DNA from: a delta proteobacterium MLS_D
GTDB lineage: Bacteria; Desulfobacterota; Syntrophia; Syntrophales; UBA2210
Length of the DNA: 56,823 bases
Reading direction: 5' to 3'
Assembly (NCBI GenBank): GCA_002030015.1
Contig: LQBH01000003.1
Coordinates: 1-56,823 of the forward strand
In this document: positions 29,534 to 45,311 of the stretch, piece by piece
Layout: the number at the start of each line of letters is the position of its first letter
How positions within the stretch are numbered: the first letter of the stretch is position 1
Translations under genes and position numbers: made by a program
The notes under the pieces: generated by a model
What the model was told of the DNA's origin: nothing
What the model saw: only the letters and a program-made list of their open reading frames with translations
The model's database searches: none

Positions 29534-29575
29534 ATTAAGGGCGCATCCTCCGCGTCGGACGCGCCCTTAAAAAAA
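29534..29575 (-). terminator. leader hairpin between riboswitch and first thi gene
   Basis: On the minus strand AAGGGCGC and GCGCCCTT form an 8-base stem around a 16-base loop, followed by the U-rich TTAATTATTT. It is the only strong structure between the aptamer and the start codon and could be the expression-platform terminator. A seven-T run on its 5' side is unexplained. Confidence 0.45.
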
Positions 29576-29589
29576 GATATCAAACTTTA

Positions 29590-29656
29590 TCTCCCTACGC
29601 TGGCATTACCCAGATCAGGTTTAAAGGGTATCTTCTCAGCCGCCCCGGCACCCCTG
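29590..29656 (-). promoter_or_regulatory. TPP riboswitch (THI element)
   Basis: On the minus strand it contains the conserved GGGGTGCC start, CTGAGA (complement at 29634-29639), then ACCTGATCTGGGTAATGCC and a closing GCGTAGGGA, in the right order and spacing for a TPP aptamer. It stands about 95 bases before the thiamine pyrophosphokinase start and should repress the TPK-thiDN-thi4-thiC operon when TPP is plentiful. Confidence 0.97.
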
Positions 29657-29765
29657 AATTGCTTATGTAATGTTTATGAATACCACCAAATCACGTGAAA
29701 CGCAATGACCCTCTTTTTTCGACCGTTCTGTCTTCCGCTTTTTTCACGAAAGACGCGTAATGTCT

Positions 29766-41671: not shown

Positions 41672-42286
41672 ATGGAATATAAAAAAAGAAGCGTTTTCAG
41701 AGAATACCTCCTGACTTTCGCCATTGCCGTCCTGATTGCCCTGTTCGTTCGAACGTTTGTCGTGCAGGCTTTCAAGATACCATCCGGATCGATGCGTGAA
41801 ACCCTCCTGGTCGGCGATCATATTCTTGTCAATAAATTTATTTACGGCGTGAAGCTCCCGGTTGTCAGAAAAACAATTATTCCCGTGGGCGAACCCGAGA
41901 GGGGCGACGTCATCGTATTTATTTATCCGGAGGACCGGAACAAGGATTTTATCAAGCGAGTCATCGCCGTGGCCGGGGACCGCGTGGAAATCAGGAATAA
42001 AAATATTTTCGTCAACGGTGTTATTCACACCGACGGTCATGGCATCTATGAAGACGACATCACCTACCCGCGATCAGTTCAACCGCGTGACAACTTCGGC
42101 CCCGTTGTCGTTCCCGAAAAACATGTATTCACCATGGGAGACAACCGGGATCACAGCTACGACAGCCGATACTGGGGCTTCGTGGACCTGGATGACGTGC
42201 TGGGCAAGGCGTTCCTTATCTACTGGTCATGGGACCGCGACAAACACCGTGTCCGATGGAACAGGATCGGCACCGTTCTGAAATGA
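41672..42286 (+). CDS. lepB: signal peptidase I
   Basis: Cleaves signal peptides of exported proteins at the outer face of the inner membrane. 204 residues. One N-terminal helix (12-28) precedes the catalytic Ser40 in IPSGSM and Lys95 in DFIKRVIAVAGD. The GDNRDHSYDSR motif (box E) starts at about 157. Small, single-span type as in many Gram-negatives other than enterics. Twelve bases after the DUF456 gene, which places the peptidase in the same transcript as SecDF-YajC. Confidence 0.96.
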   Translation: MEYKKRSVFREYLLTFAIAVLIALFVRTFVVQAFKIPSGSMRETLLVGDHILVNKFIYGVKLPVVRKTIIPVGEPERGDVIVFIYPEDRNKDFIKRVIAVAGDRVEIRNKNIFVNGVIHTDGHGIYEDDITYPRSVQPRDNFGPVVVPEKHVFTMGDNRDHSYDSRYWGFVDLDDVLGKAFLIYWSWDRDKHRVRWNRIGTVLK

Positions 42287-42339: not shown

Positions 42340-42368
42340 TTGACAGAAATTCCGGCCGTTGCTATAAA
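42340..42368 (+). promoter_or_regulatory. strong sigma-70 promoter of the pyr operon
   Basis: TTGACA (42340-42345), a 17-base spacer and TATAAA (42363-42368). The -35 is perfect and the -10 is 5/6. Expected start near 42375, about 150 bases before pyrR. Confidence 0.85.
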
Positions 42369-42411
42369 ACGGGGAAAATTGAAGCGTTCTGCAGTAAGGG
42401 GAATTGAAAAA

Positions 42412-42447
42412 ATGGCTCTCATCTTCGACAGCAAAATACAAACTTAA
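42412..42447 (+). CDS. 11-residue leader peptide of the pyr attenuator
   Basis: An ATG with AAGGGG upstream opens an 11-codon frame, MALIFDSKIQT, whose TAA lies three bases before the terminator stem. The arrangement (promoter, short ORF, terminator, biosynthetic genes) is that of a transcription attenuator in which a translating ribosome reaches the terminator. The peptide has no run of one amino acid, so any sensing would be of UTP or PyrR state rather than an aminoacyl-tRNA. Translation is not proven. Confidence 0.5.
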   Translation: MALIFDSKIQT

Positions 42448-42450
42448 CGG

Positions 42451-42484
42451 GCCTTCCCGGTTTTAAACGGGAAGGCTTTTTTTT
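42451..42484 (+). terminator. intrinsic terminator/attenuator before pyrR
   Basis: GCCTTCCCG / CGGGAAGGC (9 base pairs, 8-base loop) is followed directly by eight T. It lies between the leader ORF and pyrR. A further small hairpin CCGGCG / CGCCGG at 42494-42513 stands just before the pyrR ribosome binding site. Confidence 0.9.
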
Positions 42485-42526
42485 GAGCCTTTTCCGGCGG
42501 ACTGTTACGCCGGCGGGAGGAAAATC

Positions 42527-43066
42527 ATGGGTAGGGAAGACGCGAAACGAATCGTCATGGATGCCGAGAGAATTGACCGATCCATCGCGAGAATTGCGTA
42601 CGAGATCCTTGAAGACAATAAGGGCGCCGACGACCTGGTTATCATCGCCGTCAGGTCTGGCGGCATTATGCTGTCCCGAAGGATCAGAAAAAAAATCGCC
42701 GACATCGAAGGCGTTGTGATTCCCATGGGCATTCTCGATATAACCCTCTATCGCGACGATGTGATCATGACCGACAAGAAGCCGAAAATGGGAGAAACGG
42801 ATATACCGTTTTGTCTGAATGACAAGAAAATCATTCTCGTAGATGACGTCATTTTTACGGGACGAACTGTCAGGGCGGCCATGGACGCATTGATAGATTT
42901 CGGAAGACCGCGGGTCATCCGTCTCGCCGTGCTCGTTGACCGAGGCCACAGGGAGATTCCCATCCGGCCCGATTATGTGGGGGAAAAGCTTCCGTCATCT
43001 CTCTGGGAAAACGTCAACGTCATCCTGTCGGAGTCGGGCGGCGACGATGAAGTGGTCATTCTATAG
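42527..43066 (+). CDS. pyrR: pyrimidine operon regulator / uracil phosphoribosyltransferase PyrR
   Basis: 179 residues of the PRTase fold. The PRPP motif is [13 protein letters not shown] (102-114), preceded by [10 protein letters not shown] and followed by [17 protein letters not shown], the family's C-terminal signature. PyrR senses UMP/UTP and PRPP, binds pyr leader RNA in Firmicutes, and can convert uracil to UMP. Here it heads pyrR-pyrB-pyrC behind an attenuator-like leader. I do not see the Bacillus-type PyrR-binding loop in the leader. Strong GGGAGG site. Confidence 0.95.
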
Positions 43067-43086: not shown

Positions 43087-44010
43087 ATGGAACTGACGAG
43101 AAAAGACATTCTGGGACTGAGTGATTTCTCCGTGGACGAGATCAACCTCGTCCTCGATACGGCCGAATCTTTCAGAGAAATATCGACGCGGACGATTAAA
43201 AAGGTTCCGACTTTGCGGGGCATAACGGTAATTAATCTCTTCTACGAAGCCAGCACCAGGACCCGCACATCTTTTGAAATCGCCGCGAAACGTCTCAGCG
43301 CCGACGCGATCAATATTTCGACGTCGACAAGCAGTGTCACCAAAGGGGAAACCCTGGCGGACACGGCGAAAACTCTGGAAGCAATGAGCCCCGACATTAT
43401 AGTGATCCGCCACGCCTGCGCAGGCGCCCCGCATATCCTGGCCCGCCTGCTTGGCCAGTCCATCATCAATGCCGGCGACGGTTCACACGAACACCCCACC
43501 CAGGCACTGCTCGACATGCTGACCATACGGCAGAAAAAAGGAACCATTGAAGGTCTCAAGGTCGTGCTCGTGGGCGATATTATGAACAGTCGCGTTGCGC
43601 GCTCAAACATGTACGGCCTGACGCGGATGGGAGCTCGGGTGACCGTCTGCGGTCCGGCAATGCTCATTCCACGGGGCGTCGAGGGCATGGGGGTAACCGT
43701 TGAAACGAACATGCAAAAAGCTCTTCAGGACGCCGATGTAATCATGATGCTGCGGATGCAGTTCGAACGGCAGCAGGGAGCTGTCTTTCCGTCGGTACGG
43801 GAATATGCCCGGCTCTTCTGCCTCACTGTCCCGATGCTCGAGGAAGCAAGGGATGACGCCATCGTAATGCACCCGGGACCCATCAACAGGGGCATCGAAA
43901 TAGCGCCCGAGGTGGCCGACGGATTCCGCTCGGTGATACTCGACCAGGTGACGAACGGCGTTGCCGTTCGCATGGCCCTTCTATATCTTCTCGCAGGAGG
44001 CCGTCAATGA
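43087..44010 (+). CDS. pyrB: aspartate carbamoyltransferase catalytic subunit
   Basis: First committed step of pyrimidine synthesis: carbamoyl phosphate plus aspartate to carbamoyl-aspartate. 307 residues. The phosphate-binding STRTRTS motif (56-62), [11 protein letters not shown] and the C-terminal PGPINRG are all present. No pyrI follows, and length and order match the pyrB-pyrC arrangement of non-enteric bacteria. ATG at 43087 fits the family N-terminus (MELTRKDIL). A GTG three codons upstream is in frame. The ribosome binding site is weak. Four-base overlap (ATGA) with pyrC. Confidence 0.96.
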
Positions 44011-45311
44011 AACTGCTGTTGAAGGGAGGAAGAATCGTTGATCCCTCCCAGAATATTGATGAAACCCTGGATCTGCTGATCGAAGACGGGCTTGTCGCCC
44101 GCATCGCTCCGAACCTGCCGGCCCCCGAAGAAGGCCGTGACAGCGGCACCGCGGTGGTGGATCTGGAAGGCAAAACCGTCGTTCCGGGCCTGTTCGATAT
44201 GCACACGCACCTGCGTGAACCGGGCCACGAATACAAGGAAACCATCCTGTCGGGAACCGCGGCCGCCGTGGCCGGCGGATTCACCGCTGTTGCCTGCATG
44301 GCGAACACGAACCCCGTGAACGACAACAGTTCGGTAACAGATTTTATTCTCAGGAAAGCGGCTCGCGCCGACCTGGCGCGGGTCTATCCCGTCGCCGCGG
44401 TCAGCAGAAAACTCGAGGGAGAAATCCTGACGGAATTCAGCGATCTCAAGGATGCGGGCGCCGTAGCCTTGTCCGATGACGGCAATCCTGTAGCAAGCGC
44501 CGGCCTCATGCGCAGGGCGCTTGAATACGCTCACTCGCTCTCGCTTCCCGTCATATCCCATTGCGAAGATCGAAGTCTCACAGAGGGGGGAGCCATGAAC
44601 GAAAGTTTCGTTTCCACGGAACTCGGGCTTCCCGGCATTCCCACCATCGCCGAGGATATCATGGCGGCCCGTGACATCGCGCTTGCCGAATATACGGGAA
44701 CCACCGTTCACATCGCTCACGTCAGCACCGCTGCAACAGTGGAACTCGTACGGAACGCAAAGAGGAGAGGAATCTCGGTAACGGCTGAAACGGCGCCCCA
44801 TTATTTCACGCTTACCGACGAAGCCTTGCGTTCTTACTCGACCGATCTTAAGGTGTATCCACCGATACGCGGCCCGAAAGACCGGGACGCTGTCATTGAC
44901 GGACTCCGGGACGGAACGATCGATGTCATCGCCAGTGATCACGCACCGCATTCATCGATCGAAAAAGACGTGGAATTCGCCTATGCCGCGACGGGTCTTA
45001 TCGGACTCGAGACATCCCTCGGCCTCTCTCTTGCCATGGTCGAACAGGGCGTTATTTCCATCAGTCGGCTCGTTGAAGCCATGAGTGTAAACCCGGCACG
45101 CATTCTCGGCGTTCCCGGCGGCACGCTTCGAACGGGAACCGCGGCCGATGTCACCGTCATCGACATAACCAGGGCATGGACCGTGGACAAAAACGCCTTC
45201 CGATCCCTGAGCAGAAATTGTCCCTTTCATGGACGGCGTCTGACGGGAAAATGCCTGATGACGATTGTCGGGGGCGTCATCAAGTACCGGGAAGACGCCC
45301 GACTTCTGTAA
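44007..45311 (+). CDS. pyrC: dihydroorotase
   Basis: Cyclises carbamoyl-aspartate to dihydroorotate. 434 residues of the long, class I type. Metal ligands His66 and His68 in [11 protein letters not shown], then SHCEDRSL, the HIAHVST stretch and ASDHAPHS with its catalytic Asp are visible. N- and C-terminal beta segments of the amidohydrolase fold surround the barrel. Last gene of the pyr operon. The active-type metal residues are intact, so it is not one of the inactive DHO homologs that pair with PyrB. Confidence 0.96.

Follow-up and report, generated by a model that had tools for sequence, protein, structure and literature searches.

The pyrR-pyrB-pyrC operon of the delta proteobacterium MLS_D (Syntrophales, UBA2210), located in a stretch of 56,823 nucleotides that was analysed as a whole (contig LQBH01000003.1, forward strand; hereafter the window), is preceded by a leader in which a short ORF adjoins an intrinsic terminator. 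The question raised by this locus is whether transcription into the operon is controlled by translation of the ORF, by PyrR, the product of the first gene, or by both together. With moderate confidence, the leader is read here as a ribosome-gated attenuator that would operate independently of PyrR in the manner of E. coli pyrBI, the sensing step included.

The leader and operon in the window

The features of the locus, all on the + strand, are as follows.

41672..42286, + strand: lepB, encoding signal peptidase I, located upstream of the promoter
42340..42345, + strand: -35 hexamer TTGACA, which also precedes the leader in other members of the window's family
42363..42368, + strand: -10 hexamer TATAAA, at 17 nt spacing from the -35 hexamer
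42396..42401, + strand: AAGGGG, presumed Shine-Dalgarno sequence of the leader ORF
42412..42447, + strand: predicted leader ORF MALIFDSKIQT, 11 codons plus TAA, with start codon and Shine-Dalgarno sequence conserved in relatives
42449..42478, + strand: intrinsic terminator stem-loop, with CCTTC or CCTTT in the 5' arm, as in 115 of 124 leaders of the order
42477..42484, + strand: T8 tract of the terminator
42494..42513, + strand: second hairpin, CCGGCG/CGCCGG, beside the pyrR ribosome site
42515..42520, + strand: GGGAGG, Shine-Dalgarno sequence of pyrR
42527..43066, + strand: pyrR, 179 aa, from ATG 42527
43087..44010, + strand: pyrB, aspartate carbamoyltransferase, from ATG 43087 as chosen (the ORF listing has the frame from GTG 43078)
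44007..45311, + strand: pyrC, dihydroorotase

The elements listed in the original prediction for the 187 nucleotides of the leader (42340-42526) are all present: a near-perfect promoter (TTGACA-N17-TATAAA, 11 of 12 consensus matches), a ribosome site followed by the ORF MALIFDSKIQT, a stop codon (TAA, 42445-42447) just before the stem, a terminator with U8, and a second hairpin beside the ribosome site of pyrR. Three sites on the + strand of the window reach 11 or more matches with a spacing of 16-18 nt, against a mean of 0.1 in mononucleotide shuffles; the promoter scan passes over the one at the leader, since it accepts only second hexamers that end in T. The gap between AAGGGG and the leader ATG (42412) is long, at 10 nt. 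Counted from 42449, the terminator stem has 11 pairs, G-T included, and its uninterrupted GCCTTCCCG/CGGGAAGGC part begins at 42451, so that 1-3 nt lie between stop codon and stem depending on the stem start that is counted. The second hairpin is probably incidental: in a comparison by eye within the genus, CCGG...CCGG is all that the leaders L003 and L004 show, and L005 has no equivalent. Taken by itself the window leader does not stand out, its fold being unremarkable (z -1.2) and the terminator not beyond chance in a 1.5 kb scan (one found, 2.2 expected); the ORF start and the terminator rise above chance because they are conserved in relatives. The product of pyrR meets the NCBIfam model NF003549 (219.9 bits, cut-off 138), the type of which is a bifunctional regulator and phosphoribosyltransferase. 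Elsewhere in the window, a TPP riboswitch at 29575-29665 on the - strand scores 69.9 bits, over the Rfam gathering score.

Conservation of the leader ORF and terminator

The window's family comprises 19 genomes, 18 of them with a strong pyrR match and one (G009) with only a distant match. Across the order, strong matches occur in 132 of 149 genomes, and 130 of the 132 leaders were processed, those of G055 and G061, whose pyrR matches are partial, being left out. A terminator-like hairpin precedes pyrR in 124 of the 130 leaders, 90 of which bear the PyrR loop described below and 34 of which are loop-less, counting among the latter one (L034) whose hairpin looks like a repeat and which was set apart in the PyrR tree, and with the terminators of six leaders in one set of eight placed by hand. 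All 18 pyrR leaders of the window's family, from seven genera, carry the terminator. A matching 3' arm of the GG(A)AAGG type accompanies 102 of the 115 5' arms that contain CCTTC or CCTTT; a single strict consensus, GCCTTCYC...GGGAAGGC, was rejected, fitting in full only 41 of 124 terminators. Five loop-less leaders (L036, L208, L212, L216 and L221) have no terminator detected within 330 nt, and appear to have lost the attenuator altogether. In L011 (genome G014), pyrR follows the terminator at a distance of about 249 nt, compared with about 90 nt in its relative L013, an insertion seeming to separate attenuator and gene.

In 106 of 124 leaders, the start codon picked for the leader ORF precedes the stem by 24-38 nt. 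A combined score of -3 or lower for start and Shine-Dalgarno sequence is reached by 83% of the 90 loop-bearing leaders (32% of dinucleotide shuffles) and by 79% of the 34 loop-less leaders (36% of shuffles). Within the window's family the start is good by this measure in 14 of 18 leaders and weak in four, including L003 and L004, the nearest relatives of the window. Among the 34 loop-less leaders, the first in-frame stop ends inside the stem or beyond where it begins in 24, precedes the stem by 0-10 nt in nine and by 11-27 nt in one, and is never further upstream. The stop extends past the start of the stem in 77 of the 90 loop-bearing leaders; in three of them (L032, L035 and L039, all of family f9), which look like wrong start picks, it precedes the stem by more than 27 nt. 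Sequence and conservation provide one mark of an attenuator of the pyrBI type, a leader ORF whose predicted translation would reach the terminator, and on the same grounds the window leader is a member of a predicted attenuator that extends across the order.

The original prediction was to be abandoned if the leader ORF were not conserved. Neither the sequence of the leader peptide nor the length of the ORF is conserved among relatives, whereas its start and position are. Codon-position bias is absent, the differences at positions 1, 2 and 3 being 23, 26 and 33 in 15 loop-bearing pairs and 10, 4 and 9 in five loop-less pairs. An amino-acid-sensing leader peptide of the trp or his kind, which the adjacency of a short ORF and a terminator might bring to mind, is the least probable of all the explanations considered: the window ORF has no run of one codon, the peptides vary freely among relatives and no coding constraint was detected, for which reasons a conserved leader peptide of any kind was also rejected. 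The openness of the reading frame was not accepted as proof of translation either; 110 of 118 leaders have frame 0 open as far as the stem, and frame +2, nearly as open (100 of 118), makes this weak evidence.

The PyrR loop and PyrR residues

In most leaders of the order outside the window's family, a hairpin like CCTTTTAATTTAATCCGGCGAGATTGAAAAAGG stands directly before the leader ATG. The top of this loop resembles the PyrR anti-antiterminator consensus, ARUCCAGAGAGGYU (PMC7430163). The gathering score of the Rfam model RF00515 (54 bits) is passed by two of eight loop-bearing order loci (L165, 56.1 bits; L206, 55.4 bits) and by none of three loop-less order loci. The loop top also fits ARUCCNGNGAGRYU, which we take to be a broader form of the PyrR site. 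In an alignment of 46 of the 76 distinct loops (at most nine per family), the two-helix structure pairs in 95.8% of cells, versus 43-66% when slid, and only 2 pairs (6 cells) show changes in both partners; L049 was excluded for a misfit of its 3' arm, so that the pair counts lean towards the structure. Model R1, built on this structure, detects a single loop per genome in 91 of the 148 order genomes, and it recognises loops upstream of pyrR in Bacillaceae as well (L131, 31.7 bits; L117, 22.1 bits).

The 3' arm of the loop in these relatives contains the Shine-Dalgarno sequence of the leader ORF. An ATG follows the arm by 1-12 nt in 77 of 89 loop-bearing leaders (19% of mononucleotide shuffles), and a start of any kind, GTG and TTG included, in 87 of 89; the corresponding counts for Bacillota loops are 4 and 12 of 23. 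Pairing of the Shine-Dalgarno sequence is predicted at 0.64 in loop-bearing leaders, versus 0.40 with the upstream sequence shuffled. In the relatives, UMP-bound PyrR probably holds the loop, hides the Shine-Dalgarno sequence and blocks leader translation, upon which the terminator forms; the loop would thereby make leader translation respond to UMP by way of PyrR, suggesting that PyrR here controls initiation at the leader ORF and not an antiterminator.

A Bacillus-type antiterminator, in which RNA upstream of the terminator would pair with its 5' arm, could be suspected from the partial complementarity between the AAAAAGG of the relatives' loop 3' arm and the CCUUU of the terminator, and from family f5, where such pairing exceeds that of shuffles (-12.8 versus -10.3 kcal/mol). 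The mean is no better than that of shuffles in the 90 loop-bearing leaders (-8.0 versus -8.1 kcal/mol), in the 34 loop-less leaders (-7.7 versus -8.4 kcal/mol) or in the window's family (-7.8 versus -8.5 kcal/mol), whereas a Bacillota positive control gives -12.3 versus -9.1 kcal/mol (22 sites, with the loop arm found by a slightly different rule and L134, a partial actinomycete match, placed in neither group). With the control working and no pairing beyond shuffles, an antiterminator in the window was rejected as very improbable. The leaders of family f5 (L136, L211, L213, L215, L217, L219 and L220) may have a genuine antiterminator alongside the leader ORF.

Motif, R1 and Rfam searches confirmed that the window leader has no evident Bacillus-like PyrR loop, and none was found in any of the 18 pyrR leaders of the window's family. 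In genome-wide searches with R1, which score a subset of the candidates in each genome (43 or 150, from a pool of roughly a thousand or more), no loop is found in the 19 family genomes at E 0.01; with the threshold relaxed to E 1 there is a single weak match (E 0.24), which lies in G004 and not at pyrR. RF00515 finds none over its cut-off in the same 19, its weak matches (E 0.15-0.92) including those at the pyrR leaders of G018 (E 0.29) and G007 (E 0.92). The window leader itself scores 21.2 bits (E 0.72) with RF00515, far under the gathering score. The best match to the apical motif ARUCCNGNGAGRYU in the 330 nt before pyrR of the window has four mismatches, and the genome contains no exact match. 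A replacement hairpin over the Shine-Dalgarno sequence was not found, predicted pairing being 0.45 in the family (0.43 with the upstream sequence shuffled) and 0.48 in other loop-less leaders (0.48 when shuffled). Loop-less pyrR leaders occur also in families other than that of the window.

The PyrR protein of the window carries the changes T18A, R27D, K152E and N153K, where loop-bearing relatives have T, K/R, K/R and N (in what we take to be Bacillus numbering, anchored on locus L117), and it retains R19, R141 and R146. In a comparison of 82 order rows, at five positions chosen after the alignment had been seen, the set of T18, basic 27, R146, basic 152 and N153 is kept whole in 39 of the 40 loop-bearing PyrRs whose sequence spans them and in none of the 34 loop-less PyrRs with a terminator. 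Taken singly, basic 152 and N153 are each kept in 40 of 40 loop-bearing versus 11 of 34 loop-less rows, basic 27 (K or R) in 42 of 42 versus 22 of 34, T18 in 41 of 42 versus 25 of 34, and R146 in 40 of 40 versus 27 of 34. Because the positions had been picked after looking and loop-less PyrRs are more diverged overall (7.3 versus 0.4 of 89 columns changed), a random-column control was run on the 89 columns that are conserved in 39 or more of 40 loop-bearing rows. Five columns drawn at random from these are intact, on average, in 22.5 of the 34 loop-less rows, and in none of 5000 draws was the set broken in every row. Ranked by loss in loop-less rows, columns 152 and 153 are the top two, 27 is fourth, and 18 and 146 are within the top fifteen; columns 36, 22, 150, 157 and 131 are also lost in loop-less PyrRs. 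Some loop-less rows depart at a single position, namely L033 (T18S, also present in loop-bearing outgroups), L011 (N153S) and L034 (N153D), and L216, which has neither loop nor terminator, is a counterexample with the full five-residue set; L044 is apparently loop-less only because its pyrR is near a contig end, the loop being on another contig of the genome. The contrast holds within family f9 (7 versus 3 rows) and family f13 (7 versus 1). The best PyrR tree has six changes of loop state, of which supported branches force at least two, and Fisher values overstate the case because the PyrR rows are related.

RNA binding involves the basic concave face of PyrR (PMC7430163). The changed positions look like the RNA face of the protein, and from the residue changes, which argue against binding, we infer that PyrR of the window would have lost its affinity for RNA. 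Position 152 presumably belongs to the basic concave face. The joint loss of loop and residues makes a prediction as to which residues of PyrR touch RNA. As for what PyrR still does, no upp gene scores over the curated cut-off in the 19 family genomes, where weak matches in 10 lie in some cases in pyrR or in another phosphoribosyltransferase gene; the same search finds a match in 14 of 14 control genomes, over the cut-off in 11. Because no upp was found in the family, its PyrR is probably kept as a uracil phosphoribosyltransferase, a salvage enzyme, suggesting that the automatic label "pyr operon transcriptional regulator" is wrong for PyrR of this lineage.

PyrR might still regulate the window leader if its RNA site and the changed protein surface had diverged together: pyrR is still the first gene of the operon, R19, R141 and R146 are kept, and weak Rfam matches fall at the leaders of the window, G018 and G007. 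This is judged unlikely, given that those scores are far under 54 bits, that the leaders form a hairpin over the Shine-Dalgarno sequence no more than shuffles do, and that the PyrR changes differ between genera of the family, residues 27 and 152 being acidic in the window genus. Still less probable is a relic, that is, a PyrR-controlled attenuator that has lost its gate and is now decaying, as might be supposed from the missing loop, the changed PyrR and the five loop-less leaders of other families without a terminator; within the window's family, the terminator persists in every one of the 18 leaders and across seven genera, together with 14 good starts. The original prediction, that translation-coupled attenuation is combined with PyrR, therefore fares differently in its two parts: translation coupling is supported in the window by the start with its Shine-Dalgarno sequence and by the kept terminator, and the PyrR part suits the relatives, with their loop over the Shine-Dalgarno sequence, but not the window, which has no loop and a changed PyrR.

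The proposed gate and its known counterparts

The window leader seems to be a translation-gated pyr attenuator within a pyrR operon, control by PyrR having apparently been lost. Transcription would start some 35-40 nt before the leader ATG, as placed from the promoter, and the terminator would form unless a ribosome translating the 11-codon ORF followed the polymerase closely, in which case the ribosome, at or near the stop codon, would cover the 5' arm of the terminator and the polymerase would pass; translation itself would matter, not the peptide. In E. coli, a stop codon placed a few nt before an intrinsic terminator nearly silences it, and termination is restored at a distance of about 27-30 nt (PMC4824070), a geometry that the gap of 1-3 nt in the window fits, and we infer that ribosome occlusion would take place in this organism too. 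The same source considers that, within 100 bp of the start of a coding region, a ribosome is unlikely to catch the polymerase unless pausing couples them, as in pyrBI (PMC4824070). Because the loop is missing and PyrR is changed, the gate of the window would have to respond to something other than the signal of its relatives. The most likely signal in this lineage would be how fast the polymerase moves along the leader under a shortage of pyrimidine nucleotides, a slowed polymerase letting the ribosome catch up; such nucleotide sensing is the weakest step of the proposal.

A U-rich tract after the start codon was not found, the U content of loop-less versus loop-bearing leaders giving p 0.54 at the family level; pyrimidine content in the same comparison, which concerns composition only, gives p 0.04, a slight excess. 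An instance-level test, with L032, L151 and L173 labelled loop-less, gives p 0.02 for U and p 3e-6 for pyrimidine, and the family-level test was relied on because the instance-level test treats relatives as independent. With neither a U-rich tract nor a hairpin gate found, and with the kept terminator and start implying that the device does something, the attenuator could be ribosome-gated without sensing pyrimidines at all, read-through tracking the general strength of transcription-translation coupling. This is considered rather unlikely for a site that precedes a pyrimidine operon and whose counterparts in relatives look PyrR-controlled, and in a family where 18 of 18 leaders keep a terminator that the five loop-less leaders noted above do without.

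The favoured attenuator, with pyrimidine sensing by way of the ribosome and the polymerase, is like E. coli pyrBI (with its leader pyrL) in that a leader ORF reaches an intrinsic terminator before pyr genes, and unlike it in that the operon encodes PyrR, the ORF stops before the stem and there is no U-rich tract. Attenuation of pyrBI uses UTP-sensitive pausing. The E. coli rph-pyrE attenuator also has a stop codon shortly before the terminator stem, as in the window, but its upstream ORF is a full gene. With the Bacillus pyr attenuators (RF00515) the window shares a pyrR-pyrB-pyrC operon with an intrinsic terminator in the leader, and its relatives share the same kind of loop; the window has neither loop nor antiterminator, and the loop of the relatives differs in covering the Shine-Dalgarno sequence of a leader ORF. 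In the pyr leader of Thermus ZO5, said to have been described by Van de Casteele in 1997, PyrR reportedly acts on a leader ORF overlapping the terminator. So described, that leader is like the arrangement proposed for the window's relatives and unlike the window, which has no PyrR loop; matches to the Rfam PyrR family are present in the control genome of Thermus composti. A survey of RNA regulons contains 211 PyrR sites, and the only deltaproteobacterial lineage in its accessible text is Desulfovibrionales (PMC3766115). No description of a leader such as that of the window was found in the open full-text literature, key subscription papers being outside the search.

Attenuators of the same gene can switch sensor, according to a survey of premature terminators (PMC2965389). 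A tentative history of the window leader is that an attenuator with a PyrR-gated leader ORF lost its loop, and PyrR its RNA face, in the window's family and in at least one other lineage, leaving PyrR as the sole uracil phosphoribosyltransferase and the bare ribosome-gated terminator as a direct, PyrR-free pyrimidine sensor like that of pyrBI. If this conversion took place, the residues lost along with the loop (27, 146, 152 and 153) would trace the surface through which PyrR contacts RNA. The lineage would offer a natural experiment in the rewiring of a gene switch, the hairpin missing, PyrR changed to match, and leader and terminator kept, and the two textbook modes of pyr attenuation would be linked as one chassis of leader ORF and terminator with and without a PyrR gate.

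In other phyla, an ATG follows the loop at 6 of 14 sites and antiterminator pairing is intermediate (-9.6 versus -8.1 kcal/mol in shuffles, 12 sites), and the arrangement there is therefore mixed. A PyrR-gated leader ORF may, from such sequences, be more widespread than the order. The loci L063, L064, L076, L090, L092 and L111 of these phyla have an ATG no more than 12 nt after a PyrR loop, and some of their ORFs run towards or through the terminator.
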